64,000 bases of DNA from an uncultured Bacillota bacterium (GTDB lineage Bacteria; Bacillota; Clostridia; Oscillospirales; Oscillospiraceae): the NCBI GenBank assembly GCA_947645675.1, contig CANSDP010000002.1:124001-188000 (forward strand), written 5' to 3'. Of the stretch, positions 20,145-58,041 are shown piece by piece. How positions within the stretch are numbered: position 1 is the stretch's first letter; every line of letters starts with the position of its first letter. The notes under the pieces were generated by a model, which saw only the letters and a program-made list of their open reading frames with translations, ran no database searches and was not told the origin of the DNA. The translations under genes were made by a program, and so were the position numbers.

Positions 20145-20178
20145 ACTTCCATTAAATGTATGGAAACGTGCAATTTTT
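20145..20178 (+). repeat. 34-base cassette leader element, copy 1
   Basis: ACTTCCATTAAATGTATGGA leads into AACGTGCAATTTTT. The same 34 bases, with one to two changes, occur at 33806-33839 and, inverted, at 58008-58041, each time in the leader of a tail-fibre-tip-like gene. The conserved block starts further upstream with GGGCGCA...GGC. Role unknown; it may contain the promoter (TTCCAT, 16 bases, TGCAAT is a weak match). Confidence 0.75.
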
Positions 20179-20222
20179 GCGGGAGGTTCGCTAAGGGTGA
20201 GGGCCGCCGTCCCCCGCAGGAC

Positions 20223-20344
20223 AAAGCCTCCCTCTCCGAGGGAGGTGGCGCGGCGAAGCCGTGACGGAGGGAGTCCTCCGGAGGTTTGCGGGGGTGACTC
20301 CCTCAGTCAGCTTCGCTGACAGCTCCCTCGGGGAGGGAGCCTTT
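20223..20344. repeat. Imperfect inverted-repeat element of the AAAGCCTCCCTC type
   Basis: The ends AAAGCCTCCCTC and GAGGGAGCCTTT mirror each other. Inner segments also pair (GACGGAGGGAGTC with GACTCCCTCAGTC). Sequences of this form are widespread between genes in Faecalibacterium and relatives. It occupies the leader of the small gene at 20397, where the other cassettes carry a different palindromic repeat. Confidence 0.7.
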
Positions 20345-20396
20345 GCCCGCGCGTCGGGGATGGGGTCCACAACACAAAAATATTGGAGGTAACATG

Positions 20397-20807
20397 ATGA
20401 ATCGCACGAACAATTACAATCTCTGCCAATTTGAGGAAACCGACCGGGTGCGGCGCACCGATTTCAACGAGGACAACGCCAAGATCGACGCGGCGCTGGG
20501 GGGGATGGTGAGGCGGGTCGCTGAGCTGGAGAAGTCCCGGTTTTACACCGGCAGCTACGTCGGCAACGGCGCCAGCTCCAGGACCATTTCTTTGCCTTGG
20601 GCGCCAAGCTTTATGATCCTGCTCACCTGGGTCCACGGACAAGCCGCTATCGTATTCCTGTACCCGGGCCGGTCGGCCTACGTACGCACTGACGTCACGA
20701 ACAACGACGCCTCGGCGTACTTGAGGCTCCAGGGCTCGAGCCTGGTGATTTTGCACGACTGGATGAACCGCAGCGGCGAGACCTCCTCATACATCCTCTT
20801 CCGCTGA
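20397..20807 (+). CDS. Small tail-fibre-tip-like protein, cassette 1
   Basis: A 136-residue protein. The N-terminal module NYNLCQFEETDRVRRTDFN, then EDNAKIDAA, is shared with the two paralogues at 33962 and 57406 and with the head of many phage tail-fibre proteins. The C-terminal half (TGSYVGNGASSRTISLPWA) has the GsYxGdGxxxRxIxLxF pattern of fibre tip domains. No signal peptide or membrane segment is present. The ATG at 20397 is six bases from GGAGGT, as in the paralogues. It faces an S-layer-homology gene tail to tail across a shared terminator. No other phage genes are near. Confidence 0.7.
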   Translation: MNRTNNYNLCQFEETDRVRRTDFNEDNAKIDAALGGMVRRVAELEKSRFYTGSYVGNGASSRTISLPWAPSFMILLTWVHGQAAIVFLYPGRSAYVRTDVTNNDASAYLRLQGSSLVILHDWMNRSGETSSYILFR

Positions 20808-20815
20808 GTAAAAGG

Positions 20816-20839
20816 CCCCCGGGCCTTGCGGCCCGGGGG
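20816..20839. terminator. Bidirectional terminator, cassette 1
   Basis: A ten-base perfect stem (CCCCCGGGCC with GGCCCGGGGG) lies between the converging small gene and the S-layer gene. On the minus strand it is followed by CCTTTTACT. The same structure and tail separate the genes in the two other cassettes. Confidence 0.85.
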
Positions 20840-20870
20840 ATACCCAAGTTAAATCTGGAGCTTGTGATTC

Positions 20871-23800
20871 TCAGTGGTTGATAGTGATCTCAATATCATA
20901 ACTAGTGCTCTCGCTATCTCCTTTAGCCTCCGCATTCGGGATAACAGTATACTTCACCTTGGTGACAGTGTCGCCCAGGAACATCGTGACCGTCAGGTTG
21001 CCAGCATCGGTCGGACGGCCTTCTCCAGTGTTCGCAAAGGCTCCATTCATAGAAACCCACTCATCACCGACATACTTTTGGCCTTTGATCTTGCAATCGG
21101 GCAGGTCGGTCAAGGTAAGTTCATAGAAGCTGCCGGTAGTAGAGCCTGTGGAACCGGTAAACTCATTTTTGAGAGGCTGCGCACCATTGAAAGCTGTCAA
21201 CTTACCCTCACTAGTGGCATCGATCTTCACGCTCTTGCTGTTGAGAGTCGCGGTTCCCCCCTTAGCTCCGTTGATGGAGAGCTTGTCGCCTCCCAGACTG
21301 TTTATGATATCGCTCATGGTATTCTTCTCGCCAGAAGTCAACTCAACACCGATAGCAATTGTGGCCTTGGAGGTCTCTCCCTTGAACTCAGGAAGCTTAG
21401 TCATTCCAGTAGTCAGGGTCAGCTTGGAACCCTCTTCCACAGTAACAGGTTTGGTGACATTGCCTTTCAGAGTAACTTTAGCGTTCTTTTCCACGGTAAC
21501 AGGAGCCCCGGTCCCGTCAATGCTCCCCCCGTCGCCCAAGGTGATGGGGGTCTCGATCTTGCTAGCTCCGGTTACAGCCCCAGTGACCTTAACGGTGCCT
21601 TCGCCGGTGATCTTGGCACCTTCGCCGCTGATAGCGCCGGACACGGTCACGGTGGCTCCCTTAGCCACGCGGATTTCTTTATTTACAGTCGTGCCGCTAG
21701 GAATGGTGATATCACCGTTGGTGACAATGATATCAGTATTCTCGTCCTCAAGAGCGGTCTTCAGCTCCTCCGCACTCTCGACGGTTGTAATAGCCTCGGC
21801 CCCAGAAACCGCCGATAACGCAAACTTCGCGGTACGCTTAGCTCCGTTAGATTTAAAGGCTACGGTGTAGTTAGTCTCGTCGCTAGTATCACTCCCGGCG
21901 TCGCGGGTCCAGGTCGGGTTTTCCTCCAGGACCTTCTGAGCAACGGCCTCAACAGCTTTGTCCAGGGTCAGCTCAACGCCCTTCTTTACCTCGAAGCCGC
22001 TGACGGTGATCTCAGTGCCCACGGGCTTCCAATTATTGGACACAGGCGTGATGTCCGCTACGTCGATCGGGTTCTTGTCGTCCTCGCCGTCGCTGCTACC
22101 CGCTTCCTTATAGAAGATGGTAACAACCTTGCCGTCGTTGATAACGAAGAGGCCGGTGTCGCCAGCGGCGATGGCAGTCTTGGAGGAGGACTCGATCTTG
22201 TCGCTGTAGACAAAGACCTGAGCGTCGTCAGCCACGCGGTAGCTGCTCTCGCCAACGGTGATGTTGCCGTTGGTCAGCTTCTTTTTGACCGTGCCGTCGA
22301 CATAATAGTTGTCGCCGTTCTCGGCGTAGGCCTTGGACTTGGTAACGCTGATGATCTCCTCGTCCTCGTTAGCCCAGGTGATGGACTTCAGCAGCAGGTT
22401 TTCATTCTTCTCCTTGATGGAGGTGTCCAGCTTCACGGTGACGATCTCGCCGTTGACAACGGCGGGGCACTCATAGTAGTTGTCGCCGTCCTTGACCTTG
22501 ACCTCATCGCCGCACTCGGCGCTGAGCAGGAAGACGATGTCGTCAGAGCTGCCGGTGGCGTTGAGGACGTAAACCACGGTAGCCACACTGCCGCTCTCGC
22601 AGTAGTAGGCATAGGCGGCATTGGCACTAGTGGTCTTGGAATAAGTGCCCTCCAGGTTGGGCACAGCGTCGTAGCCGGTGTAGGCCTTGTAGTTGTCGTC
22701 GCCGTCGTCGGTCAGGAAGATGGTCTTGCTGTCGGCGTAGATGGTAGCCGCACCGCCCAGAGTCAGAGCGGCCTTGCCGGTCTCAATGGAGATGGTCTCC
22801 TTGTCATTCAGAGCGGTCTTCTTCACGCCTTTTTCAGTCAGCTTGTAGACATCCTTGGAGTTCTTGGTGAACTCTACGATCTGGCCGTTAAACTTCTTAC
22901 CCAGCTTGACCTTGTTGCTGTCGCCCTGGGTACCAACGTTACTCAGGTCGATATCATCATAGTTCAGCTCAGCCTCAACGACAGTGCCGTCGGAGAGGAG
23001 CAGCTTGGCATAGGGGACACCCTTGTCATAGCGGCCAGAGTCCTCGCCGGCCTCGATGACGTAGGCGTAATCGGTCACGCCCTCGTTCAGCTTGACCTTG
23101 ACCACGAAGTCGTTGGAATCCAGGTACAGGTCAACCTTGTTCTCCTTCTTGACGTCGGTATTGTCGGCCACGTCAACGGCGGGATTCTTGGTCCAGTTGG
23201 CGGCGAACTTATAGGTCTCGCCGTCGGCCACGAACTCGCTGGAGCCCACAGTCTTGGTGATCTCAACGTTCTCCACGATCTCGGCCAGGTACATGCTCTT
23301 AATCTTGCCGTCGGCCTTGGTGTAAACGACCACGTCGTCCACGTCGAAGCCCTCGGTCTCGAACTTCAGGCCGCCCACGGTGACGGTACGGGCGTCGTCG
23401 CCCTTGGCCTCAGTGACCTTGCTCACCTCGCCCACGTAGGGGTTGATAACGGAGATGCTCACACTGCCGTCGTCATCCTTGTAGGCGTCAACCACCACGC
23501 CGTTGCCGCCGATCTTGTCGGAGCCGGTCTTGGTGATGGAGAAGTTGTCAACGGGCTTGCCGTCAACCGTGACGGAGGCTTTGGTGGACTTCTTCAGACC
23601 CAGATCCTTGTACAGGTCTTCGGCCTTGACAGCCTTGATGTAGGAGGCGTCAGCGGCCTCGGCCACGGTGACGATCTCGTCGGTCTTGTAGCTCCAGATG
23701 TTGGCGGGACGGCCGAAGCTGTCATCGCCGGGCACCAGGCGCAGGTCCTTCTCATACAGGTTCTCGCACAGCTGGAGCTTCTCGTCGCTCACGTCCTTCT

Positions 23801-24503
23801 TGTAAGCGCCGGTGCTCTGGGTGTAGTCGAACTTGTTGGTGGTCCGCTCGGTGTAGGTGACCTTGCCGGGGATGGTGACAACGCCCTCAACGACGATGTC
23901 CTTCTCCACGTCAGAGGTAACCATGGTGGCCTGGAGGGCGTTCAGGCTCAGCTGAGCCACCTGGTTGCGGTTCAGAGGAGCGCTGGCGCTGGAGCCCACG
24001 TCGGCGAACAGACGCAGCTCGTTGGCCTTGGCAACCACGGGCTGGGCCCAGTTGGTGCCGGTGCTCTCCAGCTTCTCATAGCCCAGCACGCGCAGGACCA
24101 TGGCGGCGGCCTCCTGAGCGGTCACAACGGCGCTGCCGTCGTAGATGCTCTCGGTGCGGCCGGCGACGATCTTGTTGTCGTAGCAGGCGGCCACGTACTT
24201 CTGCGCCCAGGTGGGCACGTCGGTGAAGGGGCAGGTGCCGACATACTTGTCAGCGTCGCTGCCCAGAATCAGCTTGGCCAGAATGACGGCCATCTCGTTC
24301 CGGGTGACGTTGTCCTCGGGACGGAAATTGCCGGTGTCCTCGTCGCCGAGCATCACGCCCACAGCGTTCAGGACAGAAATGGCCTCGGTGTTGTCCTTGT
24401 TGGACACATCGGGGAAGCTCGCCGCGCTGGAGCCGACGACCATCATGCCCATGAGCATGACAGAGGCCAGAGCCAGGCTGAGAGCCCGTTTCAGGTTTCT
24501 CAT
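20871..24503 (-). CDS. S-layer-homology surface protein, cassette 1
   Basis: A 1210-residue exported protein. Signal peptide MRNLKRALSLALASVML to about residue 27, then three SLH domains to about residue 190 (FPDVSNKDN..., PFTDVPTWAQKYVAACYDNK, the WAQPVVAKANELRLF region) that anchor it to pyruvylated wall polymer. The long middle part is acidic and strand-rich. Residues about 985-1100 consist of short Gly/Val/Thr-rich repeats (VNKEIRVAKGATVTVSGAIS) like a beta-helix. The leader and ribosome site are shared with the SLH genes at 34501 and 53896, but SLH sequence here is clearly more diverged. It is probably a major wall-surface protein. Confidence 0.92.
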   Translation of the reverse strand: MRNLKRALSLALASVMLMGMMVVGSSAASFPDVSNKDNTEAISVLNAVGVMLGDEDTGNFRPEDNVTRNEMAVILAKLILGSDADKYVGTCPFTDVPTWAQKYVAACYDNKIVAGRTESIYDGSAVVTAQEAAAMVLRVLGYEKLESTGTNWAQPVVAKANELRLFADVGSSASAPLNRNQVAQLSLNALQATMVTSDVEKDIVVEGVVTIPGKVTYTERTTNKFDYTQSTGAYKKDVSDEKLQLCENLYEKDLRLVPGDDSFGRPANIWSYKTDEIVTVAEAADASYIKAVKAEDLYKDLGLKKSTKASVTVDGKPVDNFSITKTGSDKIGGNGVVVDAYKDDDGSVSISVINPYVGEVSKVTEAKGDDARTVTVGGLKFETEGFDVDDVVVYTKADGKIKSMYLAEIVENVEITKTVGSSEFVADGETYKFAANWTKNPAVDVADNTDVKKENKVDLYLDSNDFVVKVKLNEGVTDYAYVIEAGEDSGRYDKGVPYAKLLLSDGTVVEAELNYDDIDLSNVGTQGDSNKVKLGKKFNGQIVEFTKNSKDVYKLTEKGVKKTALNDKETISIETGKAALTLGGAATIYADSKTIFLTDDGDDNYKAYTGYDAVPNLEGTYSKTTSANAAYAYYCESGSVATVVYVLNATGSSDDIVFLLSAECGDEVKVKDGDNYYECPAVVNGEIVTVKLDTSIKEKNENLLLKSITWANEDEEIISVTKSKAYAENGDNYYVDGTVKKKLTNGNITVGESSYRVADDAQVFVYSDKIESSSKTAIAAGDTGLFVINDGKVVTIFYKEAGSSDGEDDKNPIDVADITPVSNNWKPVGTEITVSGFEVKKGVELTLDKAVEAVAQKVLEENPTWTRDAGSDTSDETNYTVAFKSNGAKRTAKFALSAVSGAEAITTVESAEELKTALEDENTDIIVTNGDITIPSGTTVNKEIRVAKGATVTVSGAISGEGAKITGEGTVKVTGAVTGASKIETPITLGDGGSIDGTGAPVTVEKNAKVTLKGNVTKPVTVEEGSKLTLTTGMTKLPEFKGETSKATIAIGVELTSGEKNTMSDIINSLGGDKLSINGAKGGTATLNSKSVKIDATSEGKLTAFNGAQPLKNEFTGSTGSTTGSFYELTLTDLPDCKIKGQKYVGDEWVSMNGAFANTGEGRPTDAGNLTVTMFLGDTVTKVKYTVIPNAEAKGDSESTSYDIEITINH

Positions 24504-24865
24504 AGTGTTTCCTCCTTGTTAATTTTTTCGGCCATGAGAGGGGCCGTTTTCCGTAAAAACAGGGCTTCGCGACGGTCTTGGTAGAACGCAAAGTTTTAAC
24601 ATTTCCGTAACAAAGTTCTCTATTTTTACCGAAATTTTCGAGGTTTTTCTACTTTTTCCTCCCCTCACCGGGGTGTCACACCCCTGACGCAGGTCCTAAA
24701 AGTTGCGAAAACCGGAGGAAACTGCGAAAAACAATCCTCTAAACCTGTCAAAAAGTGAAACTGGTAGACATTTGGTAGACATCCTAAAATATTCCAGTTT
24801 CCGCAATCCCTTGCGGCACAAGGGTTCGACAGGACTTTTTGGTAGACCATTGGTAGACATGGGGG
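24504..24865 (-). repeat. Long conserved SLH-gene leader, copy 1
   Basis: About 360 bases upstream of the SLH gene match the region 53530-53895 (inverted) at high identity, and the gene-proximal 160 bases also match 37867-38036. The distal part has four copies of TGGTAGACAT or close variants and a hairpin around GCAATCCCTTGCGGC. The proximal part contains the untranslated leader with GGCCCCTCTCATGGCC next to AACAAGGAGGAAACACT. No protein is supported here; frames on the minus strand are not conserved. Confidence 0.8.
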
Positions 24866-24903
24866 TACGGTTGGAATCTTAACAAAAGCTTCACAAAAGC
24901 GGC

Positions 24904-24967
24904 TTGACAGTGGGGGGGCTGATCCGTATAATTGTGACAGGCTGTCACATTGCGACACAATGTCACA
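24904..24967 (+). promoter_or_regulatory. Perfect sigma-A promoter with two TetR operators
   Basis: TTGACA (24904-24909), 17 bases, TATAAT (24927-24932). Directly after it come two palindromes with TGTGACA/TGTCACA halves and three-base centres: 24933-24949 (perfect) and 24951-24967 (one change). They cover the start of transcription and lie just before the TetR gene, so the operon is almost surely repressed by its own first product. Confidence 0.88.
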
Positions 24968-24984
24968 ACATGAGGGGGGAGGAC

Positions 24985-25617
24985 ATGCCAAGCAGTACAT
25001 TTTTTCGGCTCCCAGAGGAAAAGCGGGCGCGGCTGATTGAGGCCGGCTGGGCGGAAATGACCCGGGTCCGGTTTACCGAGCTCTCCATCAGCCGAATCAT
25101 TGCGGAGGCCCGTATTCCCCGCGGGAGCTTTTACCAGTATTTTGATGGCAAGGAGGACCTGATCCGCTACCTTTTAGGGGACATGCAGGGATATTTTATC
25201 ACCCTGCTGCGGGACATCCTGGTGCAGGCGGAGGGCGACCTGTTCGCGCTGCCTCTGATGGCCTACGACAGCTTTATCAGCGGAAAGGGCTATGCGGACC
25301 CCATCCTGACCCGGTTTATCCAGCTCATCACCCTGAACAAGGGGTATGACCTGCAAAGCATTGTGGGCGGGCCCAGCGATTTGCTCCCTGACAAGCTGTG
25401 GGAGGTGGTGGACCCCTCCAAGCTGCGGCGGAGGGACCGGGGCTATGCCGGCAATATTTTTCGTCTGTCCTGCGCGGTGCTGGCCCTTGCCATTATGGAG
25501 ACCCTGCGGGCCCACGGTCAGATGGACCAAACCCGGGCCTCGATCGAGACAAGGATGGATCTGCTGCGTTACGGCGGCGCGGCGGAGGGATATGGATATA
25601 AGGAGGAAACGATATGA
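24985..25617 (+). CDS. TetR family repressor of the RND efflux operon
   Basis: A 210-residue TetR protein: helix-turn-helix at about residues 12-55 (RARLIEAGWAEMTRVRFTEL and IAEARIPRGSFYQYFDGKED), then a helical ligand domain. The ATG at 24985 follows GAGGGGGGAGG; upstream in-frame codons would fall within the operators. Its last four bases overlap the TolC-like gene. The tandem palindromes at the promoter are its expected sites, with an exported drug or metabolite as inducer. Confidence 0.92.
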   Translation: MPSSTFFRLPEEKRARLIEAGWAEMTRVRFTELSISRIIAEARIPRGSFYQYFDGKEDLIRYLLGDMQGYFITLLRDILVQAEGDLFALPLMAYDSFISGKGYADPILTRFIQLITLNKGYDLQSIVGGPSDLLPDKLWEVVDPSKLRRRDRGYAGNIFRLSCAVLALAIMETLRAHGQMDQTRASIETRMDLLRYGGAAEGYGYKEETI

Positions 25618-27131
25618 AACGAAAGATGTTGGCTTTGCTGCTGTCGGCGGCGATGCTCCTGTCGCTGCTGGGAGCCACCGCCCTGGCGGTGGAAGGGGAC
25701 GAGCCGGCCACGTCCAGCGCCTCTGTGTCGGAGCCGGAGGAGGGGGAGACCACTGAGCCGGACCCCGCCGAGGACGCGGGTCCCGAGGAGAGCGCGCCTC
25801 CCCAGGAGGGAGAGCCCCCCGCCTCAGAGGATGGCGGAGAGGAGGCCAGCTCCTCTGAGCCCCTGGACCGCCCCACGGTGACCGTTGGGGCCCTTACGGC
25901 GGAGGACGTACCCCAGGACGGGACGGCCCCGGAGACGGAGCCCGACGCCTATATCCCCGACCCGGCGGGCGCCATTACCTTTGACAACCTGGGCCGTCGG
26001 ATGCGGGAGAACAACCTGAACGTGCTGGCCCTGGAGGAGAACATACAGGTCATTCAGTCCACCGACTACGACGAGCTGAAGGAGGACCTGCGGAAGGGTC
26101 TGAACGAGATCGCCAGCGCCCAGTGGAACCTGATCAGCATAGGATCTGGGATCGGTGCCGAACTTCCCCTTCCGGGGTTGGGTGAAGCCCTTTCCGGCAT
26201 TGCCTCCCTGTCCACAGCCTCTACCGTTCAGCAGCTTCAAATCCAGTATGACGCCATGCGGGAGACCTTTGACGACATCAAGGACGGCAAGCTCCAGGCG
26301 GACCATCAGGACCTGGTGCGGCAGCTGGAGAACGCCCAGAACCAGGTGATCCTGGCGGGGGAGACGCTGTACATCGCCCTGGTGAACATGGAGCAGAACA
26401 GCAAGGCCATCGACCGGGGGCTGAACACCCTGGACCGGACACTGAAGGAATTGGAGCTGCGGTATGAGCTGGGGCACATCCCGGCCCAGACCCTGGCTCA
26501 GACCCAGGGCGCCCGGGACGCTCTGCTGAGCAATCAGCGGACCCTGAACAGCAACATCGAGGCCTACACATTGCAGCTGGAAATGCTCATTGGGGCCCAG
26601 CTCACCGGCAAGGCCCGTCTGGGCGGACTGCCCCAGGTGACGGCGGAGCAGCTCCAGAGCATGGACCTGGAGCGGGACGTAGCCGCCGCCAAGCAGGCCA
26701 GCTACAGCCTCTACGAGGCCAAGCAGACCCTGGACCAGGCCAAGGAGGACTTTGACGACACCGGCAGCAAATACAACCACAGCGAAAAGCACTATGAGTA
26801 TATCCAGGCCCAGCACCAGTGGCAGGCGTCCCAGCACACCTATAATGCCGCCGTGCAGAGCTTCGAGATGAGCCTGAGGGTGCTGTACCTCAAGGTCAAG
26901 GACAACGACCAGGTCCTGACCGCCGCCCGGAACGCCCTGGCCCTGGAGCGGAACAACTTCGCCGCCGTCCAGCTGAAGCACAGTCAGGGCAATCTCTCCG
27001 AGTCGGCCGTGGCCGAGGCGGAGGACAAGGTAAAGCAGGCCCAGGAGGCGGTAGACAGCGCGCTGATCGAGCTGTTCGCCTCCTACCGCAGCTACCGCTG
27101 GGCTGTGGACTACGGTATTCTGAATACTTAA
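25614..27131 (+). CDS. TolC-like family protein of an RND efflux operon
   Basis: A 505-residue exported protein with signal peptide (KMLALLLSAAMLLSLLGATA), an acidic Pro/Ser/Glu-rich linker to about residue 115 and a long helical part. That part shows the paired coiled coils of the outer-membrane efflux family (LGRRMRENNLNVLALEENIQ early, LAQTQGARDALLSNQRTLNS in the middle, LSESAVAEAEDKVKQAQEAV at the end). In a monoderm cell it cannot be a classical outer-membrane channel, so it may span the wall or have another assembly role. It lies between the TetR and adaptor genes, coupled to the former. Confidence 0.82.
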   Translation: MKRKMLALLLSAAMLLSLLGATALAVEGDEPATSSASVSEPEEGETTEPDPAEDAGPEESAPPQEGEPPASEDGGEEASSSEPLDRPTVTVGALTAEDVPQDGTAPETEPDAYIPDPAGAITFDNLGRRMRENNLNVLALEENIQVIQSTDYDELKEDLRKGLNEIASAQWNLISIGSGIGAELPLPGLGEALSGIASLSTASTVQQLQIQYDAMRETFDDIKDGKLQADHQDLVRQLENAQNQVILAGETLYIALVNMEQNSKAIDRGLNTLDRTLKELELRYELGHIPAQTLAQTQGARDALLSNQRTLNSNIEAYTLQLEMLIGAQLTGKARLGGLPQVTAEQLQSMDLERDVAAAKQASYSLYEAKQTLDQAKEDFDDTGSKYNHSEKHYEYIQAQHQWQASQHTYNAAVQSFEMSLRVLYLKVKDNDQVLTAARNALALERNNFAAVQLKHSQGNLSESAVAEAEDKVKQAQEAVDSALIELFASYRSYRWAVDYGILNT

Positions 27132-27143
27132 AGGAGACCGCCC

Positions 27144-28628: not shown

Positions 28629-28633
28629 GGCCG

Positions 28634-33805: not shown

Positions 33806-33839
33806 ACTTCCATTAAATGTATGCAAACGTGCAATTTTT
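33806..33839 (+). repeat. 34-base cassette leader element, copy 2
   Basis: ACTTCCATTAAATGTATGCA then AACGTGCAATTTTT, identical to the copy at 58008-58041 and one base off the copy at 20145. It is preceded by GGGCGCAGCACGGCCCG and followed by CAAGGAGTTCCTCC in copies 2 and 3. Confidence 0.75.
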
Positions 33840-33877: not shown

Positions 33878-33904
33878 GTAGGGGCGGATGATATCCGCTC
33901 CTAC
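33878..33904. repeat. Dispersed palindromic repeat in the cassette 2 leader
   Basis: A near-perfect 27-base palindrome of the GTAGGGGCGGATGATATCCG type ending in CTCCTAC. It lies 58 bases before the small gene. Confidence 0.75.
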
Positions 33905-33961
33905 AAGGGTACCTGACGGCTCGGCACGCGCCCACACATCTTGAAAAATGGAGGTAACATC

Positions 33962-34441: not shown

Positions 34442-34450
34442 GTAAAAGGA

Positions 34451-34472
34451 CCCCCGGGCCGAAGCCCGGGGG
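34451..34472. terminator. Bidirectional terminator, cassette 2
   Basis: Nine-base arms (CCCCCGGGC with GCCCGGGGG), four-base loop, with CCTTTTACT after it on the minus strand. Same structure as in cassettes 1 and 3. Confidence 0.85.
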
Positions 34473-34500
34473 CAGCTCAAATATGAACTGAGTCTCGTTT

Positions 34501-38242: not shown

Positions 38243-38572
38243 CCTGTAGGGCGTGACCACCGGGCACGCCGTCCCCCGTTGCCCGTCCCAAAACCAGCGG
38301 CGCGCCGGGTCGTCGCGCCCTACGCGCACCGTGTAGGGGCGGATATCATCCGCCCGCATCCCCGGAAATGTGGGTTTCCCTGTAGAACGGGCGGATAATA
38401 TCCGCCCCTACAAAAAACCCTTGACAAACGGAGCGGACCGTATATAATATGAATAAGGGCACCGTTACAGCGGTTGACCCAAATGCTTCTAACTTACAAA
38501 GTTAGCCGCTCGGGTGCGACCGGGCGGCTAACACGCTTTTATGGTTGACAGGTACATGAGAATCGCCGTACC
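38243..38572 (+). repeat. 330-base direct repeat, unit A
   Basis: Unit A (38243-38572) abuts unit B (38573-38902) without a gap, with an exact period of 330 bases. Each unit holds two palindromic GTAGGGGCGG repeats, a consensus promoter, a small RNA gene and the last part of the peptide gene. The units are nearly identical except in the variable part of the RNA (38481-38532). Confidence 0.88.
38455..38541 (+). ncRNA. Small RNA 1, candidate antitoxin RNA
   Basis: The promoter TTGACA (38421-38426), 16 bases, TATAAT (38443-38448) should start RNA near 38455. The RNA would begin AAGGGCACCGTTACAGCGGT and end in a 13-pair hairpin (38501-38532, arms GTTAGCCGCTCGG and CCGGGCGGCTAAC) followed by ACGCTTTTAT. 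No open frame with a ribosome site lies inside. Its hairpin shows compensatory changes against RNA 2. It is followed by only the 3' fragment of the peptide gene, so it has no complete partner in place. Confidence 0.6.
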
Positions 38573-47924: not shown

Positions 47925-47956
47925 CTTAAACGAATTCTTATGGCAAAAGTGTTGAT

Positions 47957-48157: not shown

Positions 48158-48167
48158 GGCATTATTT

Positions 48168-48350: not shown

Positions 48351-48507
48351 GTTCACTCATCCTTTCAAGTAAATTCTTATGCCACCAAGCATCTATACTT
48401 AATATTATACATTAAAACCAAAAAAACTGTCAAGCAGTTTTGTCTAATTTATCTAAATTTTTAAATTATTTTCACATTTTGGTAAACATAAAATGAGAAG
48501 GTAACAT

Positions 48508-48738: not shown

Positions 48739-48960
48739 CTGGACAGCGACCTGGCGGGCGCGCCCGCCGGATCGGAAACGGCGGAGCTGAGCAACGATAC
48801 CATCTACGTCAACGGCCAGAAGGTGGAGGCCGAGGTCTACAAGATCGGCGGCATGAACTACTTCAAGCTCCGTGACCTGGGCAAGGCCCTGAACTTCTAT
48901 GTGGGCTGGAGCCAGGAACAAGGTATATTCATCGACACCAGCAAGCCCTACTCCGAATAA
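48736..48960 (+). pseudogene. 3' remnant of a copper-amine-oxidase-like stalk-domain gene
   Basis: Seventy-four codons before the TAA at 48958 read, in part, NDTIYVNGQKVEAEVYKIGG then MNYFKLRDLGKALNFYVGWS, the C-terminal stalk domain found in many secreted Oscillospiraceae proteins. There is no start codon with ribosome site, signal peptide or upstream part. It abuts the YihY remnant, which runs the other way. A terminator follows the stop codon, showing that this is a genuine old gene end. Confidence 0.75.
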
Positions 48961-48966
48961 AACACG

Positions 48967-48995
48967 AACCGGCTCCCCGCTTTGGGGAGCCGGTT
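48967..48995. terminator. Bidirectional terminator after the stalk remnant and htpG
   Basis: Perfect 12-base arms (AACCGGCTCCCC and complement), five-base loop, followed on plus by ATTTTTTAG; on minus the tail is weaker. Confidence 0.85.
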
Positions 48996-49000
48996 ATTTT

Positions 49001-50917: not shown

Positions 50918-50964
50918 GATTGTGATTCCTCCGTGTATATCAATTTACTTAGATAACAATACGG

Positions 50965-50991
50965 TTAGCACTCCTTCTTTTTGAGTGCTAA
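50965..50991. promoter_or_regulatory. CIRCE operator of htpG
   Basis: TTAGCACTC (50965-50973), nine bases, GAGTGCTAA (50983-50991): a perfect match to the HrcA operator. The symmetry extends four further bases on each side (ACGG/CCGT). It lies four bases downstream of the -10 box of the htpG promoter. Confidence 0.97.
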
Positions 50992-50995
50992 CCGT

Positions 50996-51024
50996 ATTCT
51001 AGCGCACCTCCCGGCAAAATGCAA
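50996..51024 (-). promoter_or_regulatory. Promoter of htpG
   Basis: On the minus strand TTGCAT (51019-51024), 17 bases, TAGAAT (50996-51001), followed at once by CIRCE, so that HrcA would sit on the start of transcription. Confidence 0.8.
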
Positions 51025-51049
51025 GAGGGTTCATAATTTGTTTACACTT

Positions 51050-52444
51050 TCAGTCGCCCATGTCCAGATTGCGGAAAAAGATATACTCCCCCTTGTCCAG
51101 GTCGTAGGCCCCGAAGAAAATGCCGTCGTTCTCTTTGAAGGTCAGCAGCCCGTCCTGGAGGGAAAACTGCACCCAATTATCCCGCTGGGTGGGGGGCAGG
51201 GTGAGGACGGGCTCCAGCCGGTCGTTGAAAACGGTCCAGGCGCCCCGCTCATAGGCGGCGGGAAAAATAGAATTTGGCCGGAGCCGGTCAGCAATGAGCT
51301 CGAAATCCGTCCCCTCCATCAACCGCTCCCCGGTGGACAGGCGGTACAGGGTCCAGATGTTGTTCCCCGCGTGCTGCTCATCCAAAATGGCGAAGTCTCC
51401 CCGTTTGACAGACAGCCTACCCGTCTCATAAGTGTCCTTCAGAAAATAGGACTGGCCGTCCACCGTCAGCGTGGCCCCGCTGTTCTTGTGGACCAGCTTC
51501 CCCATATCGCTCCAGCGGCGGTCGGAGTATTCGTCATACCACTGGTCCCACTGGCGCTGCTCCACCCAGTAGACTTCCCCGGTCTCAGGCCGGAACACAC
51601 GCGCCGGGGTGTTATCCCAACTGAGGTCCGGGTCCGACTCGCCCCACCCCAGGCAGACCCCCTGGTCCAGCCAGTTCAGCCCGGTGACCCATTGGATAAA
51701 GGAGAGGGTCTCCGACAGTTCCTCCCCGGACGCGGGCATGTCCAGCTCCTTCCAGCTCCAGTCCTTTCTGGAACCGGTTTGGCTGTCCAGCACAGTACAC
51801 CCCTCGGGCCGCAGGAGGAAAAGCTGGTCCTCCTTGTTGGTGTAGTTCAAAAACTCAAAATCCGTCATCCAGCTGCCGTCCTCCGCCGCCACGGCGCACC
51901 GGCTTCCGCTGCCAAGCTCCTTCCACTTAGGGTCCGCCCGCGTCAGGATCAGGACGGGCAGAGCGTGGTCCTCCCCCTCCCAGCGGTAGCTGTAGGGCCA
52001 CACGTTCTGATACACCGGGTCCACCACGATTTTCCCCTCCCGGGTCATCAGGCCGTAGAAGGAGGTGGGCCAGTAGGAGAAGTACTTCTGCATTTCGCCC
52101 TCATGCTCCCAGCGTTCGAAGGAATAGGCCTGGTCCCCCAGATAGGGGACAAGCGGTCCGTAGTCCGCCCCGGTAATGAGGTGGTCCATGTACTGGGGGT
52201 AACACCGGCCCCCGTCCACATTGGGCTGGGGCTGGGACCGCCCGCCCAGCCGGGACCAGTCCACCCGCACACCGCCCGCCGTCTCCCACTCCGGCTCCTT
52301 TATGGGCTCCTTCGGCGGCTCCTCCGGCTGAGAGACGGAGACGTCCGGCTCAGAAGCGGCGGGGCCGCTTGATCCCGGGCTTTGCGGGGCGCATCCGGCC
52401 AGCAGCAGGCCGGCCAGCAGAAACGCTGCCCATCCTCTCTTCAT
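51050..52444 (-). CDS. Lipoprotein of unknown function
   Basis: A 464-residue lipoprotein: signal with lipobox LLLAGC (Cys 18), a Pro/Ser/Glu-rich linker to about residue 55, then a large aromatic-rich domain (FYGLMTREGKIVVDPVYQNV and similar stretches) resembling WG-type or beta-propeller repeats. It follows a PstS-like lipoprotein gene by only three bases, so the two form an operon and may act together at the cell surface. Specific function unknown. Confidence 0.78.
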   Translation of the reverse strand: MKRGWAAFLLAGLLLAGCAPQSPGSSGPAASEPDVSVSQPEEPPKEPIKEPEWETAGGVRVDWSRLGGRSQPQPNVDGGRCYPQYMDHLITGADYGPLVPYLGDQAYSFERWEHEGEMQKYFSYWPTSFYGLMTREGKIVVDPVYQNVWPYSYRWEGEDHALPVLILTRADPKWKELGSGSRCAVAAEDGSWMTDFEFLNYTNKEDQLFLLRPEGCTVLDSQTGSRKDWSWKELDMPASGEELSETLSFIQWVTGLNWLDQGVCLGWGESDPDLSWDNTPARVFRPETGEVYWVEQRQWDQWYDEYSDRRWSDMGKLVHKNSGATLTVDGQSYFLKDTYETGRLSVKRGDFAILDEQHAGNNIWTLYRLSTGERLMEGTDFELIADRLRPNSIFPAAYERGAWTVFNDRLEPVLTLPPTQRDNWVQFSLQDGLLTFKENDGIFFGAYDLDKGEYIFFRNLDMGD

Positions 52445-52447
52445 CCC

Positions 52448-53434
52448 CTATCCCTCCACATCGGTTACAGGGACATAGCCCTCTATCGCCGCCAGCCTCT
52501 GGCCCCCCGGCCCCAGCACCCAGTCGTAGAGGACGCGGGTGGGGCTGTCCGCCGGGGCGGCCTTGGCGATGGCCACAAAATAGGGGTTGAGGAAGGGATA
52601 CTCCCCCGCCCGGATGGCCTCCGCCGAGGGGGATACCCCGTCCACAGCCAGCACCTTCAGCCCCTTGGCCATCTCCATGTCGTTGGCGTAGTAATACACC
52701 GTGTACCCCAGGGCGGCGGCGGAGTTGTCATACTCCCGCACCGCGTTGAGCAGGCCCTCCATGCTGTTGGCCGTCCAGGTGGTGGGCGGCTCCATCAGTT
52801 CCAGGCCATCCATCACCAGCTTTTCAAACATAGTTTGACTGCCCGCCCCCTGGTTGCGCTGGAAGGGGATGATCTCCAGGTCCTCGCCCCCCACCTGGCT
52901 CCAGTTGGTGATCTCGCCGGTGTAAATTTTTTGCACCTGTTCCACCGTCAGGCTGTCCACCGGGTTGTCCTGGTTGACCACAAAGACCAGGGCGTCGGTG
53001 GCGAAGGGGGTCATCAGCCAACGGTTCCCCGCCTCCAGCTCGGCCAACACATCGGGCGCGGGCTCCGCCGCCAGCAGCAGATCGGCCTCCCCGTCCATCA
53101 GGTTCCGGTAGGACATGGTGGTGCGGTTGAAGCTGACCAGGTCGCTCACCTCAGAAATGTCCTCCCCCAGCAGCACCGCGCATATGGCCTGAGCCAGCGG
53201 AGCCGTGGAGGTGGAGCCGTCCAGCCGGGGCATGTTCTCCCGGGTAAACACGAAGGCATCGGAATCGGCCTCGCCGCTGGAGTTCTCGCCGGAGGACCCG
53301 GCCCCGCTGGAGGACTCTGGGGAGCTGGACGCCCCTCCGCTCCGCACATCCGAGCCCTCCGCTGGAGCCTTGGGCCCGCAGGCCGTCAGCAGGATCGCCC
53401 CCGCCAGGCCCATCGCCAATAAAATTTGCCTCAT
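52448..53434 (-). CDS. PstS-like substrate-binding lipoprotein
   Basis: A 328-residue lipoprotein (lipobox LLTAC, Cys 19) with a Ser/Gly-rich linker and a periplasmic-binding fold of the PstS type: LDGSTSTAPLAQAICAVLLG at the phosphate-loop position, VEQVQKIYTGEITNWSQVGG, then FQRNQGAGSQTMFEKLVM. The GSTS and RNQGSGSQ-like motifs are the phosphate-binding signature. No pstCAB transporter genes are adjacent; instead a lipoprotein gene follows, so a sensing or scavenging role rather than transport is possible. Confidence 0.85.
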   Translation of the reverse strand: MRQILLAMGLAGAILLTACGPKAPAEGSDVRSGGASSSPESSSGAGSSGENSSGEADSDAFVFTRENMPRLDGSTSTAPLAQAICAVLLGEDISEVSDLVSFNRTTMSYRNLMDGEADLLLAAEPAPDVLAELEAGNRWLMTPFATDALVFVVNQDNPVDSLTVEQVQKIYTGEITNWSQVGGEDLEIIPFQRNQGAGSQTMFEKLVMDGLELMEPPTTWTANSMEGLLNAVREYDNSAAALGYTVYYYANDMEMAKGLKVLAVDGVSPSAEAIRAGEYPFLNPYFVAIAKAAPADSPTRVLYDWVLGPGGQRLAAIEGYVPVTDVEG

Positions 53435-53529
53435 AAAAGTACCTCCTCATTGATAACCAAATTTTCCATCCGCTATATCAGACGCAAAATGCTCCAAAAG
53501 GTTTCAAAAATAGTATATAACCTTCTGCC

Positions 53530-53895
53530 CATTTCCGCAAGTCTACCAAACGTCTACCAAAAAGTCCTGTCGAACCCTTGCGCCGCAAGGGATTGCGGGG
53601 ACTGGAATATTTTAGGATGTCTACCAAATGTCTACCAGTTTCACTTTTTGACAGGTTTGGAGGCCTGTTTTTTGTGATTTCCTCCGGTTTTTACAACTTT
53701 TAGACCATACGTCAGGGGTGTGACACCCCGGTAAAGGGAGCGAAAGATTCAGAAACCTCGAAAATTTCGGTAAAAACAGAGAATTTTGTTACGGAAATGT
53801 TAAAACTTTGCGTTCTACCAAGACCGTCGCGAAGCCCTGTTTTTACGGAAAACGGCCCCTCTCATGGCCGAAAAAATTAACAAGGAGGAAACACT
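53530..53895 (+). repeat. Long conserved SLH-gene leader, copy 3
   Basis: The region matches 24504-24865 over its whole length and 37867-38036 over the gene-proximal 170 bases, both inverted. It has four ATGTCTACCA-type motifs, the GAACCCTTGCGCCGCAAGGG hairpin region and the common untranslated leader ending in AACAAGGAGGAAACACT. Confidence 0.82.
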
Positions 53896-56800
53896 ATGAG
53901 AAACCTGAAACGGGCTCTCAGCCTGGCTCTGGCCTCTGTCATGCTCATGGGCATGATGGTTGTCGGCTCCAGCGCGGCGAGCTACCCCGATGTGGACGAT
54001 CAGGACCACGTCGAGGCTATTGAGGTCCTCAGCGCTGTCGGCGTGATTGTCGGCGACAACGGGAACTTCCGGCCTGACGACTCCGTCTCCCGCAACGAGA
54101 TGGCTGTCATCATGGCCAAGCTGATCCTGGGCACCTATGAGGCCGACAGCTACGTGGGCTCCCATCCCTTCACCGACGTGCCCAGCTGGGCCAGCCGGTA
54201 TGTGGCCGCCTGCTACAACAGCGGCATCATCTCCGGCCGGGGCGAGGGCATCTATGACGGCGCTTCCACCGTGACCGCCGTTGAGGCCGCCGCTATGATG
54301 CTGCGGGCTCTGGGCTACGAGGACCTGTCCCTGGGCGCGACCCAGTGGGACCAGCCCGTCGCCGCCAAGGCCAACGAGATCAACCTGTTCAAGGGCCTGT
54401 CCGGCAACAGCCAGACCCCCATGGACCGTAACTCCGTGGCTCAGCTGGCGCTGAACACCCTGGAGGCCACCATGGTCCGCACCACCCGCACCGGCCAGGA
54501 CATCACCCTACCCGGCGGCATCGTGATCGCCAGCACCCGGACCTATGTGGACCGTGAGGATGTCAACGGTCGGGACTATCTTAAGGAGGATGGAGTTCTT
54601 TCTGGTGACAATAAACTCCAGCTGTGCGAGCATCTGTATGACAAAGACCTGACGAAGGACACCGGTAAGGGTGACGACTTCGGCCGCCCCGCTACCACCT
54701 GGAGCTATGACGGCAAGGAAGTCATCTCCGTGGCCAACGACGCCACCCTGACCTACACCAAGGAGGTCAAGGCCAAGGATATCTACAAGGCTCTGAACCT
54801 GCGCGCCACCAAGTCCGACGTTGAGTACTTTGTGAACGGCGAGCAGAAGGCCGATGAGACCCTCAGCAGCACCGCCTCTAGCACCCTGAACAGCGGCAAC
54901 GGCACCCTGACTCAGGTCTACAAGGACGGCGACGATGTCACCATCACCGTCATCGAGACCTTCCTGGCTCAGGTTTCCGGCGACTATGACGAGGACGACG
55001 AGGAGCTGACCATCGCCGCTGTCAGCGACGATTCCGCTCTCGGCACCGTGGATTACACCCTGAAGCTGGAGGATTTCGCCAACCTGGCTGACTTCTCTGA
55101 CGAGGATTATGTCCTGTTCACCGCCGTGACCGACGGCACCGATGCCACCGTCAAGACCCTGGTTCCCGCCGAGGTAGTCACCGCTACCGTTAACGGCTAC
55201 ACCAAGGACAACGACGGCACCACCCCCAAGGACGTCACCTTCGACGGCAAGACCTACGAGTACAACGTCAATTTTGACGCTCAGGGTCTGGACACCAACT
55301 ACACCGTGAAGGAAGAGAGTGTCTTCATCATGGACGGCTATGACTATGTCATTGGCCTGGATGAGGTCGCCAACAGCAACGACTACGTCTTCATCCTGGA
55401 GTTCAAGTCCGACGGCTGGAACACCAGCAAGACCGTCAGCGCCAACGCCTACTTCACTGACGGCACCAACAAGGACATCAAGCTGGAGAAGGTAAACGGC
55501 AAGTCCATCAACACCGTCACTTCTGGCAAGCCCGACCAGACGAAGGTTGTGACTGACTCCGGCACGTTCTACGCCGGCTGGTACACCTACACCGAGAAGA
55601 ACAACGCCTATCGCGTGACCGGAACTGCGGGCAGCGCTCCAAGCGCCGTGGGCAATAACACCAAGGTAATTGAGAACGGCAAGGCTACGATTAACCTCGC
55701 TGGTCCCGCTACTAGCAAGGGTTCTGACAAGACCATCCTGGTGGTGAAGGACGGCAACGACATCGACGTCTACACCGGCGTCAAGGAGATGCCCACTATC
55801 ACCACTGACAGCGCCAGCTCCAAGACCTACGCCTGGGTCTCCGAGAAGAGCAACGGCTATGCCTCCTATGTGTTTGTTGACGTAGCCAACGGCGACGTTG
55901 AGGGCGCCAGCAGCGCCAGCGGCGACCTGATCTTCATCATGGATGAGACCTCCTACAAGGTGAGAGTTGACGAGGACGACAACACCTACTACCTCTACGA
56001 CAAGGCCATTGTCAACGGCAAGAGCGAGTCCGTCAAGGCCGCCAGCAATGCCACCTTCTCCGCCCCCGGCCTGTACCACAGTGTCCGTTACGACGAGAAC
56101 GAGTTCGTGGACGACGCCGACCTGGCCCTTGATCCTGACGAGGACTACATTGTGAACACCAGCCTCTCCGGCGCGGCTGTGGCCGGCGAGGGCGGCACCG
56201 TTGAGGTCGGCGGAACCTCCATGCGTCTGGCTGACGAGTTCGTCATCCGCGTGGTTACCTCCGACAACAAGATGGTCACCATCAAAGACGCCGAGGCTCT
56301 GAACAACCGCTACAAGAACAAGGTGGTTGACGGTGAGCTCTGGGCCGCCCTGAAGGACGACGAGGTTACCACCCTGATTCTGGTTGTGGATAGCGTGGGT
56401 GACCCCCCCAGCGGCAGCGCCGCCGTGAAGGCTGTATATGAGTCCACCAGCGCGGTTACTGACGCCGCTGTAACTACCGTGACTGCTACTAGCTCCATCG
56501 CTGGCGTGACCGTTGACCTCAGCTCTGCGACCGAGGCCGACAAGATGAACACCGTCAAGACCGCTCTGGCCGCTGACGGCACGTTTAATAGCGCCTGGAC
56601 TGTCTCGGAGCCCGATAGTACCACCAAGGTCATCACTGTGACCAAGAAGGTTGCCGGCGTCACAACCAATCCCGACAGCAACTTCTTCGTTGAGAAAACC
56701 GCTGGCGTGGCCGCAGTTCCGGCTGTAGCAGCTGTGTACAACAGCGGCACGGTGACGAAGCTGGATGCTGACGGTGATTTAGAGATTGGCGGCTATTCTT

Positions 56801-57321
56801 CCAGTATTGTGGTTGCAACTCAGGATGACTTGGCTAAGCAGCTGGCGAAATTTGTTGCTGACTACAATGCGGATGGCGCAAATACAGAATGGACGGTCGC
56901 AATAAATGATGCTAGCGATGGGATCAAGTTCACTGCCAAGACCGCTGGTGCGATCGGCCAGACAGGCCCTGCCAACGCTCCCACAGGTGCCACTGAGGTG
57001 ACTGAGGGTGCGGAAGAGATTGCCGCTGTTGCCGCCGTGTACACCCTGGATCCCAGCAAGGTACTTCTGGGAGGAAGTGCTATGGAGATTCACGGCAAGA
57101 AGTACGCCGTCACCGGCGCTGACCTGGCTGAGAAGCTGGCCGCTTGGGTTCAGGCTTACAAGAGCGACTCTGGTAACACTGAGTGGGACGCTGCGGTGAA
57201 AGCCGGCGAACTCAAGGTCGTGTTTACCGCTAAGACTGCGGGCGCTCTGGCTACGACCGGAGCCACTGCTCCGACAGACACCACAGAGGTGACCGCCGGC
57301 GCGGATGCCGTAACTCCTTAA
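53896..57321 (+). CDS. S-layer-homology surface protein, cassette 3
   Basis: A 1141-residue exported protein with the same signal peptide and SLH region as the cassette 2 protein (nearly identical for 118 residues, then drifting apart). The central body is acidic with many short strands (FANLADFSDEDYVLFTAVTD is shared in pattern with cassette 2). The last 220 residues hold two related units of about 100 residues, each with a VAAVY start and a FTAKTAGA motif (KFTAKTAGAIGQTG and VFTAKTAGALATTG). This is the only SLH gene of the three on the plus strand. Confidence 0.92.
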   Translation: MRNLKRALSLALASVMLMGMMVVGSSAASYPDVDDQDHVEAIEVLSAVGVIVGDNGNFRPDDSVSRNEMAVIMAKLILGTYEADSYVGSHPFTDVPSWASRYVAACYNSGIISGRGEGIYDGASTVTAVEAAAMMLRALGYEDLSLGATQWDQPVAAKANEINLFKGLSGNSQTPMDRNSVAQLALNTLEATMVRTTRTGQDITLPGGIVIASTRTYVDREDVNGRDYLKEDGVLSGDNKLQLCEHLYDKDLTKDTGKGDDFGRPATTWSYDGKEVISVANDATLTYTKEVKAKDIYKALNLRATKSDVEYFVNGEQKADETLSSTASSTLNSGNGTLTQVYKDGDDVTITVIETFLAQVSGDYDEDDEELTIAAVSDDSALGTVDYTLKLEDFANLADFSDEDYVLFTAVTDGTDATVKTLVPAEVVTATVNGYTKDNDGTTPKDVTFDGKTYEYNVNFDAQGLDTNYTVKEESVFIMDGYDYVIGLDEVANSNDYVFILEFKSDGWNTSKTVSANAYFTDGTNKDIKLEKVNGKSINTVTSGKPDQTKVVTDSGTFYAGWYTYTEKNNAYRVTGTAGSAPSAVGNNTKVIENGKATINLAGPATSKGSDKTILVVKDGNDIDVYTGVKEMPTITTDSASSKTYAWVSEKSNGYASYVFVDVANGDVEGASSASGDLIFIMDETSYKVRVDEDDNTYYLYDKAIVNGKSESVKAASNATFSAPGLYHSVRYDENEFVDDADLALDPDEDYIVNTSLSGAAVAGEGGTVEVGGTSMRLADEFVIRVVTSDNKMVTIKDAEALNNRYKNKVVDGELWAALKDDEVTTLILVVDSVGDPPSGSAAVKAVYESTSAVTDAAVTTVTATSSIAGVTVDLSSATEADKMNTVKTALAADGTFNSAWTVSEPDSTTKVITVTKKVAGVTTNPDSNFFVEKTAGVAAVPAVAAVYNSGTVTKLDADGDLEIGGYSSSIVVATQDDLAKQLAKFVADYNADGANTEWTVAINDASDGIKFTAKTAGAIGQTGPANAPTGATEVTEGAEEIAAVAAVYTLDPSKVLLGGSAMEIHGKKYAVTGADLAEKLAAWVQAYKSDSGNTEWDAAVKAGELKVVFTAKTAGALATTGATAPTDTTEVTAGADAVTP

Positions 57322-57374
57322 CATCCCAGCTACAATTCCTGATTTCTGAAGGGATATCAGAAAATCAAGAGGAA

Positions 57375-57405
57375 CCCCCGGGCTTTGGCCCGGGGGCTCT
57401 TTTAC
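57375..57405. terminator. Bidirectional terminator, cassette 3
   Basis: CCCCCGGGC (57375-57383) with GCCCGGGGG arms and CTCTTTTACT after it on the plus strand, matching the terminators of cassettes 1 and 2 in structure and tail. Confidence 0.85.
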
Positions 57406-57876
57406 TCAGCCGAGGATGGCGTACTGATAGACGTGGGCGCTACCGTTCAGGTGGTTATATGAGCCGTCAGTACGCTTCAGAACCACACCGGTTTCTGTCC
57501 AGGTCGTTTTGAAGGAAAAGGTGGTTCCATTTTTGATAACATGGCCTTTGGAAGCGCCGTAGGTCATGAAGGCAATAACATCATTGGCTTGAATGATTAA
57601 GGCCTTTGCGGGAAAACCGGCGTGGATGGTCCACTCGTCGGCACCGGTGCCAGTGTAGGCCCCGGCCTTGAGCTTCACCCCTCCGGCAATCGCGGTGTTG
57701 AGCGTCCGCACCGCCGTCTCCCGCGCGGCCCGCTCCGCCGCCACCGCCGCCGTCCGCGCGTCAGCCTCCGCCTTGATCGCCGCGTCGATCTTGACGTTGT
57801 CCTCGTTGAAATCCGTGCGTTGTACCCGGTCCGTTTCCTCCCATTGGCAGAGCTTGTAGTTGGTTGTGCGATTCAT
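57406..57876 (-). CDS. Small tail-fibre-tip-like protein, cassette 3
   Basis: A 156-residue paralogue: MNRTTNYKLCQWEETDRVQR then TDFNEDNVKIDAAIKAEADA, a short helical stretch rich in Ala and Arg, and a tip domain from about residue 72 (KAGAYTGTGADEWTIHAGFP) ending HVYQYAILG. GGAGGTAAC precedes the ATG as in the other two. It converges on the SLH gene. The tip domains of the three paralogues differ much more than the N-terminal modules, as expected for proteins whose tips bind different partners. Confidence 0.72.
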   Translation of the reverse strand: MNRTTNYKLCQWEETDRVQRTDFNEDNVKIDAAIKAEADARTAAVAAERAARETAVRTLNTAIAGGVKLKAGAYTGTGADEWTIHAGFPAKALIIQANDVIAFMTYGASKGHVIKNGTTFSFKTTWTETGVVLKRTDGSYNHLNGSAHVYQYAILG

Positions 57877-57898
57877 CGTGTTACCTCCAATTTTTTAT

Positions 57899-57969
57899 GT
57901 AGGGGCGGCCTGTGGCCGCCCGTTCCAGGCACAAATCCTTGTGTGCGGGCGGATCATATCCGCCCCTAC
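57899..57969. repeat. Palindromic repeats in the cassette 3 leader
   Basis: Two pieces of the GTAGGGGCGG family: GTAGGGGCGGCCTGTGGCCG at 57899 and the GCGGATCATATCCGCCCCTAC piece ending at 57969 (given here as its core). They lie just upstream of the small gene, in the same place as the repeat in cassette 2. Confidence 0.75.
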
Positions 57970-58007
57970 AGAGACCAGCGCCCCTCTGCCCCTGGAGGAA
58001 CTCCTTG

Positions 58008-58041
58008 AAAAATTGCACGTTTGCATACATTTAATGGAAGT
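58008..58041 (-). repeat. 34-base cassette leader element, copy 3
   Basis: Inverted copy of the element at 33806-33839, identical over 34 bases. It lies 15 bases beyond the pyrG stop codon and marks the outer edge of cassette 3. Confidence 0.75.

Follow-up and report, generated by a model that had tools for sequence, protein, structure and literature searches.

Facing S-layer-homology and fibre-like genes in an Oscillospiraceae genome: candidate lock-and-key cassettes of a domesticated phage-like particle

Why should a bacterial chromosome carry, several times over, a gene for a surface protein that faces a gene for a protein resembling the tip of a phage tail fibre? The question is raised by a 64,000-nucleotide stretch of an uncultured Bacillota bacterium of the Oscillospiraceae (positions 124001-188000 of contig C2 of genome G000, an assembly of 2.46 Mb in 75 contigs that is estimated to be 82% complete), referred to here as the window. 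An earlier note on this DNA had described a three-copy cassette in which a gene for a protein of 1121-1210 residues with S-layer homology (SLH) domains converges on a small gene of 136-159 codons, and all three sets were located. The answer that we consider probable, if only slightly so, is that each cassette would encode a key, the small protein, and a lock, the SLH protein, for use with a phage-like particle that the host has domesticated.

The three sets of the window are part of a larger number. A search of the whole genome with one of the small proteins returned 12 matches in 11 genes, one gene being matched in two stretches, so that the count of three holds for the window and the genome total is 11. 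The N-terminus of one SLH protein gave 17 matches, 11 of which are convergent partners, one per small gene, while the remaining six are weaker (26-40% identity) and lack a small gene. Every one of the 11 small genes faces an SLH gene of one family, with 42-85 bp from stop to stop in all pairs; contig ends truncate two of the SLH copies, and there may be a twelfth cassette where another SLH leader stands at the edge of contig C11. A GC-rich hairpin of the form CCCCCGG...CCGGGGG lies between the stops in 11/11 cassettes; of the common terminator described earlier, the hairpin is thus general, and its sequence CTTTTACTCAGC (three copies in the window vs 0.13 expected) is confined to the window's three. 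The element reported at the outer edge is found at all three cassettes and has 11 copies in the genome (<=3 mismatches), each outside a small gene, with none for the reversed pattern. The conserved leader stood for the first and third cassettes and not for the middle one, which has no TGTCTACCA repeats and in which upstream homology ends some 200-250 bp ahead of the SLH gene; across the genome, eight of the nine cassettes with upstream DNA present have an SLH leader of their own. Mean pairwise DNA identity among cassettes (leader and SLH start from nine, other parts from 11) is 0.86 for the 200-bp leader and 0.81 for the small-gene N-module. Along the SLH gene it falls from 0.85 in the first 300 bp through 0.77 in the second and 0.63 in the third to 0.54 in the last 600 bp, and in the tip it is 0.54, vs 0.53 for shuffled sequence. 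This profile, which bears out the conserved N-termini and variable bodies and tips noted before, places a variable SLH body and a variable tip next to each other in the middle of the cassette, with conserved parts outside.

The three SLH proteins of the window have the N-terminus MRNLKRALSLALASVML(M/V)GMMVVGSSAAS, two SLH stretches each (PF00395, whole-protein E 1e-11 to 4e-11) and, as judged by eye, a signal peptide, and so combine the signal peptide and SLH domains expected of S-layer proteins. The small proteins resemble the tail fibres of phages, with a conserved N-module of about 35 residues, then a coiled coil, then a beta tip. Nine viral contigs carry the N-module, and seven were inspected by eye: in five (L120, L122, L123, L125, and L127) it opens a fibre gene behind baseplate-J-like genes of contractile tails, with gpI-like genes also preceding it where visible; L126 has a different tail type, and L124 repeats the layout of a fibre gene and a convergent open reading frame (ORF). 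The predicted structure of the 156-residue protein (pLDDT 87.7, pTM 0.59) has a long helix at residues 23-64 and a beta tip at 69-155, and the viral structures that match it best (E 7e-8 and 2e-6) bear the annotation 'Tail fiber protein', which, with the N-module in viral fibre genes, upholds the fibre nature first proposed from the letters. Among 34 aligned relatives, at E 0.01 or better, six match a virion structural family, three a tail family, and three a tail fibre family. A PDB fold search with the same model gave no match at E 0.001 or better, and neither Pfam nor PHROGs yielded a firm match for the small proteins of the window.

The candidate particle is encoded elsewhere on the chromosome, in an operon that was compared between G000 and the nine genomes behind related loci. 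A homologous operon is present in each of the ten, in the order small terminase, large terminase, portal, a gene of unknown function, major head protein, sheath, tube-like gene, LysM, gp25, baseplate J, and gpI (the small terminase and tube being named by position, and the operons of G003 and G004 being read in two pieces). Baseplate_J was found in 10/10, and some operon proteins are already catalogued as phage families; like a gene transfer agent (GTA), the operon carries tailed-phage structural and packaging genes on the chromosome. No N-module gene follows gpI in any of the ten operons, and reading the operons and their flanks by eye revealed no integration or replication genes, no dedicated search having been made. 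A headless tailocin is ruled out by the terminase, portal, and major head protein. The operons lack a long tape-measure ORF, the tube-like and LysM genes being ~1.2-1.4 kb apart (L169 10727-12632, other operons likewise); so short an interval would suggest a very short tail. Contig C48 of G000 (L170) has a second baseplate J, 31% identical to that of the operon, within another tail cluster that is probably a separate prophage.

In a family sample of 150 genomes, the capsid gene occurs in 54 and is single copy in 53. The operon adjoins, by eye, a divergent carboxypeptidase gene (dac) and glgB in 9/10 genomes, Dysosmobacter being the exception; distances between capsids follow those of GlgB (first 130 residues; r 0.71, Mantel p 0.003, seven genomes), and the capsid diverges no faster than GlgB (0.19 vs 0.24). 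Single copy, neighbours, and GlgB distances thus agree with the long-term vertical evolution that characterizes GTAs. Capsid matches were found in 12 phage records, and the five at >=50% identity are unannotated faecal scaffolds. The two faecal scaffolds with capsid that were read (L276, MT835508; L275, MT835769) hold the operon amid ribosomal and metabolic genes (by eye), and one of ten IMG/VR contigs includes glgB and dac. Separately, the human-faeces records L119 (MT836974), L276, and L275 are named 'Bacteriophage sp.' and contain bacterial chromosome as judged by eye. The operon is best read as a domesticated, GTA- or PBSX-like particle: the sequences establish a single-copy, vertically inherited operon, with genes predicted to package DNA and to build a head and contractile tail.

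Small genes and operon have a DNA motif in common. At operon starts, GGAAACGTACAACTTTT or a variant lies about 32-46 bp (about 220 bp in Dysosmobacter) upstream of the small terminase gene, and the motif was found ahead of the terminase small-subunit gene at 11/11 operon starts read. The first eight of these are the sole eight matches in 22 loci scanned, G003, G004, and G137 (4 mismatches) having been added; the terminase sites of CCNA10 and G006 exceed three mismatches and were found with a looser pattern. The operon motif corresponds to the right half of the element upstream of the small genes (e.g., TGTATGGAAACGTACCACTTTT in Colidextribacter). In a scan of genome contigs with the small protein, which gave 61 related loci, this upstream element was found at 33, where it precedes the small gene by 65-430 bp and has the same strand. 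Scanning ten genomes with ATGGAAACGTACAACTTTT (<=3 mismatches) gave 58 matches vs three in the reversed control; matched by position to the small genes and to the stretches read, these are eight at the operon, 34 at small genes, one at 670 bp ahead of a small gene, three at BppU-like genes (one a fragment), two at a DUF6883 gene set, and two at contig ends. The scan is not clean, as the other eight are unassigned, three of them being among the five matches of CCNA10. All 13 matches in G000 could be placed, and none lies at an SLH leader.

The BppU-like genes extend the picture unevenly. One set of genes in G004 begins behind the motif, includes a BppU-like gene, and extends as far as genes for a holin (PF05105, E 9e-30) and an amidase (PF01510, E 2e-17). 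The BppU-like gene of G005 and G006 has a degenerate motif at best, and inspection by eye recognised no lysis genes there; that of G001 and G003 showed no motif; and on contig C19 of G000 the motif stands ahead of what appears to be a broken fragment of the gene. Taken together, the sites suggest one regulon of the head-tail operon and the adsorption genes, joined by lysis genes in at least one genome; such a regulon would give the particle the multi-locus layout of a GTA, with operon, small genes, and BppU-like and lysis genes at separate loci under one motif. On contig C1 of G000 (L221, about 3059-3760), a gene that resembles a serine recombinase (by eye) lies directly ahead of a motif-headed BppU-like gene. 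Two recombinational explanations of the element itself were considered, of which the first was discarded and the second is less favoured. An invertible promoter had been proposed for an inverted pair of elements in Dysosmobacter, which proved to belong to two divergent small genes, one copy each; a mobile cassette bounded by recombination sites fits less well than a control site, there being one element per cassette, upstream and in the sense of the small gene.

This common element bears on what the tips are. The note had seen interchangeable surface variants, and the variable centres agree with that; because the outer element is common to the small genes and the phage-like operon, the tips themselves are most likely adsorption proteins of the particle rather than surface variants. 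That the small genes carry an N-module found on phage fibres after the baseplate, variable tips, and a motif in common with the operon is established at the level of predicted genes. A fibre-derived host protein, such as a decoy against S-layer-using phages or an adhesin, would be no particle part at all, and to such a protein would be suited the finding that two of the small proteins, compared with 50,697 phage records, matched none except one mislabelled bacterial scaffold, as would the eight small-gene genomes with no capsid at the threshold used. We nevertheless hold it very unlikely, in view of the motif held in common with a head-tail operon that has no N-module fibre gene, and of the small proteins of the 11 G000 cassettes, in which no signal peptide was seen by eye. 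The mislabelled scaffold (MT836974) was rejected as a phage carrier, being a bacterial contig with htpG (by eye) and the fibre/convergent-ORF layout. Small gene and capsid also go together: among the 150 genomes 35 have both, eight the small gene alone, 19 the capsid alone, and 88 neither (odds ratio 20, Fisher p 3e-13, genome relatedness not corrected).

Pairing extends well beyond G000. At 48 of the 61 loci a long convergent ORF lies beside the small gene; 30 of these partners match the SLH profile, are convergent and lie within 1.4 kb (26 within 204 bp), and 18 run off the contig and end before the N-terminus is visible, a long ORF alone being weak evidence in GC-rich DNA. Five of the 61 small genes are themselves cut. 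The 30 SLH-confirmed loci come from 13 assemblies, including Lawsonibacter, Flintibacter muris, Pseudoflavonifractor capillosus, Colidextribacter, and the complete genome CCNA10, and a one-contig genome from the genus of the window (G137) holds six small genes in a single 26-kb array, each with a convergent SLH match, five of these pairs having been read. The 149 family genomes besides G000 contain 102 small genes (120 rows, less 18 judged by eye to be a second stretch of a gene already counted), and for at least 54 of them the matches listed include a convergent SLH hit no more than 9 kb away on the contig, compared with two in the same-strand downstream control and six in the upstream control. 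Fifteen unpaired small genes were inspected by eye: at L240 and L248 the search had overlooked a convergent SLH-like gene, that of L237 follows the tail genes of a prophage-like cluster, and for the other 12 a partner was not seen or could not be judged. Solitary or prophage-borne relatives of the small gene thus occur in some distant family members, and the earlier pairing claim survives in part on both of its exposed sides: small genes independent of an SLH gene exist beside the larger number with a convergent ORF, and a prophage location applies to some distant relatives and not to the window, for which cassettes as prophage cargo were rejected, all three being flanked by ordinary chromosomal genes.

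Whether body type and tip type travel together was examined with Mantel tests within genomes of four or more cassettes (>=4), using four SLH windows. Tips covary with the last 600 SLH residues (combined z 5.1 over six genomes) and with the last 300 (combined z 4.2); with the SLH N-terminus z is 1.3 over three genomes. Single Mantel p-values need care, given the use of four windows and the truncation of several SLH proteins at contig ends. Pooling 63 cassettes from 20 genomes, with tips shuffled within genomes only, gave p 0.01, and between genera the most similar tips accompany the most similar bodies in L063/L067, L068/L065, L068/L070, L085/L086, and L101/L111. The supposed joint travel is therefore seen in some genomes and in the pool and fails in G000 itself. 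Were the small and SLH genes to serve different ends, the cassette being a convenient recombination unit at variable surface loci, one would expect what is seen in G000, identical tips next to different bodies, and solitary small genes in some distant genomes. Convergent pairing conserved in 13 other assemblies, and a covariation that is stronger for the SLH body than for the last 150 residues adjoining the tip, nevertheless leave mere linkage distinctly improbable in our judgement.

Several observations weigh against the lock-and-key interpretation. Tip and body do not covary in G000 (rho 0.08, p 0.33), nor appreciably over the last 150 SLH residues in the combined test (z 0.4); in L059/L072 and L064/L066 the tips are near-identical and the bodies unlike, and the related tips of L104/L074 accompany bodies in the 3rd percentile. 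Eight of the 61 loci lack a partner (for one of them only 462 bp remain, and another has an SLH match at a distance of 1.8 kb), and 48 of the 102 small genes have no convergent SLH gene among the matches listed, contig-end cases included. The upstream element was seen for only 33 of the 61 loci, lysis genes behind the motif in one genome only (G004), and small gene and capsid occur without each other in eight (at the threshold used) and 19 genomes, respectively.

If the lock-and-key interpretation is followed through, a producer cell would express the operon and the adsorption genes via the common motif and release the particle by lysis. The small proteins would be made along with the particle, their N-module plugging into its baseplate and their tip setting the binding target. 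The partner SLH protein, behind a different leader, would display the matching surface on cells; with TGTCTACCA repeats of its own in the SLH leader and no motif match at SLH leaders in G000, lock and key need not share cell or time. The convergent orientation puts body and tip next to each other in the middle of the cassette, so that homologous recombination in the conserved ends could swap both, making the 11 pairs of the genome an exchangeable repertoire. The S-layer protein of Clostridioides difficile is a phage receptor and S-layer cassette type decides phage susceptibility (PMC10100898), and by analogy an SLH protein would be a plausible target. A match may result in admission (DNA delivery to kin, as by a GTA) or in protection or killing, both being compatible with the cassettes.

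The second outcome leads to a rival, a PBSX- or tailocin-like weapon that kills cells recognised by its tips, the linked SLH variant being an unbound, resistant coat. It would yield the same linkage and covariation, and two further loci bear on it. In CCNA10 (L223, about 4867-5783, minus strand) the motif precedes a DUF6883 gene (E 1.5e-6) and then a small partner gene, and in SRR12464008 (L229, about 5932-6306, minus strand) it precedes a 57%-identical partner gene alone; with DUF6883, which we take to be a possible effector, this set is possibly cargo, or an effector with its protector. The operon, however, keeps terminase, portal, and capsid, beyond the needs of a headless killer, and related tips tend to accompany related bodies across genera, which immunity does not require, so that we rate the weapon as unlikely.

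A larger claim, which we advance tentatively and think less probable than the lock-and-key relation itself, is that a domesticated gene-transfer particle operates across the family with its aim set by heritable receptor/adsorption pairs, such that cells sharing a cassette exchange DNA and the pairs move between strains as one recombination unit. If true, the cassettes and the particle would amount to a kin or mating-type system, genetically encoded and based on a tamed phage. Why GTAs persist in genomes is debated (PMC6209664), and an adsorption protein paired with the producer's own surface protein, in many variants, would give a direct handle on that question. The pairing could also explain why these gut bacteria hold so many SLH variants, and the motif offers a DNA signature for locating the particle's scattered genes. 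Among the matches listed in the literature searched (without subscription papers or preprints), there was no report of a fibre/surface-protein gene pairing or of such a particle in Oscillospiraceae.

The features of the three cassettes are collected in Table 1. In the SLH leaders (24761-24860 and 53531-53638), TGTCTACCA pairs ~11 bp apart occur twice, 78 bp apart, flanking a CCCTTGCGCCGCAAGGG hairpin; the arrangement looks like an operator for a response-regulator-type protein. Inverted repeats GGGCGGAT..ATCCGCCC, resembling repetitive extragenic palindromes, lie at 33882-33908 and 38329-38412, between upstream element and small gene and at cassette edges, and are present in relatives too. Outside the window, an SLH-like match at 110837-111091 of contig C2 (L026) falls within an open frame of ~5500 codons for a giant surface protein.

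Table 1. Positions of cassette features within the window (position 1 is the first letter of the window).
Feature	Position	Strand	Remark
Upstream element, first small gene	20147..20176	+	sense of small gene; right half common with terminase-operon motif
Small fibre-like gene, 136 aa	20397..20807	+	
GC-rich hairpin between both stop codons, first cassette	20808..20870	.	
SLH gene, 1210 aa	20871..24503	-	
SLH-gene leader element, first cassette	24761..24790	-	with TGTCTACCA repeats
Upstream element, second small gene	33808..33837	+	
Small fibre-like gene, 159 aa	33962..34441	+	
GC-rich hairpin between both stop codons, second cassette	34442..34500	.	
SLH gene, 1121 aa	34501..37866	-	leader without TGTCTACCA repeats
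SLH-gene leader element, third cassette	53609..53638	+	with TGTCTACCA repeats
SLH gene, 1141 aa	53896..57321	+	
GC-rich hairpin between both stop codons, third cassette	57322..57405	.	
Small fibre-like gene, 156 aa	57406..57876	-	structure modelled
Upstream element, third small gene	58010..58039	-	

Each part of this arrangement has a counterpart among known systems. The sap genes of Campylobacter fetus are multi-copy S-layer genes with a conserved N-terminal region and variable bodies, which favours recombination, and the family is not known to have a convergent fibre gene; here there is such a gene, and eight of the nine cassettes with upstream DNA present have their own leader. Tailocins such as diffocins likewise combine a contractile tail with a receptor-binding protein that decides the target; tailocins are not known to carry heads, whereas the operon described here keeps terminase, portal, and major head protein. 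PBSX and PBSX-like elements are similar in having a contractile tail with head and packaging genes on the chromosome. PBSX is one locus with its own fibre genes, whereas N-module fibres would here be supplied in trans from dispersed cassettes. The unit exchanged in C. difficile holds surface-protein genes, and the unit here also holds a fibre gene. The likeness is in variable surface-layer gene types that decide phage susceptibility (PMC10100898). GTAs (RcGTA, BaGTA, and BhGTA) are also host-kept chromosomal head-tail genes, in single copy and at several loci (PMC9662315). They differ in that the tail genes here are of contractile type and the adsorption genes are many and interchangeable, each facing a surface-protein gene. 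As the genomic features examined agree with those of GTAs and the particle is known from its genes, it is filed here as gene-transfer-agent- or PBSX-like.

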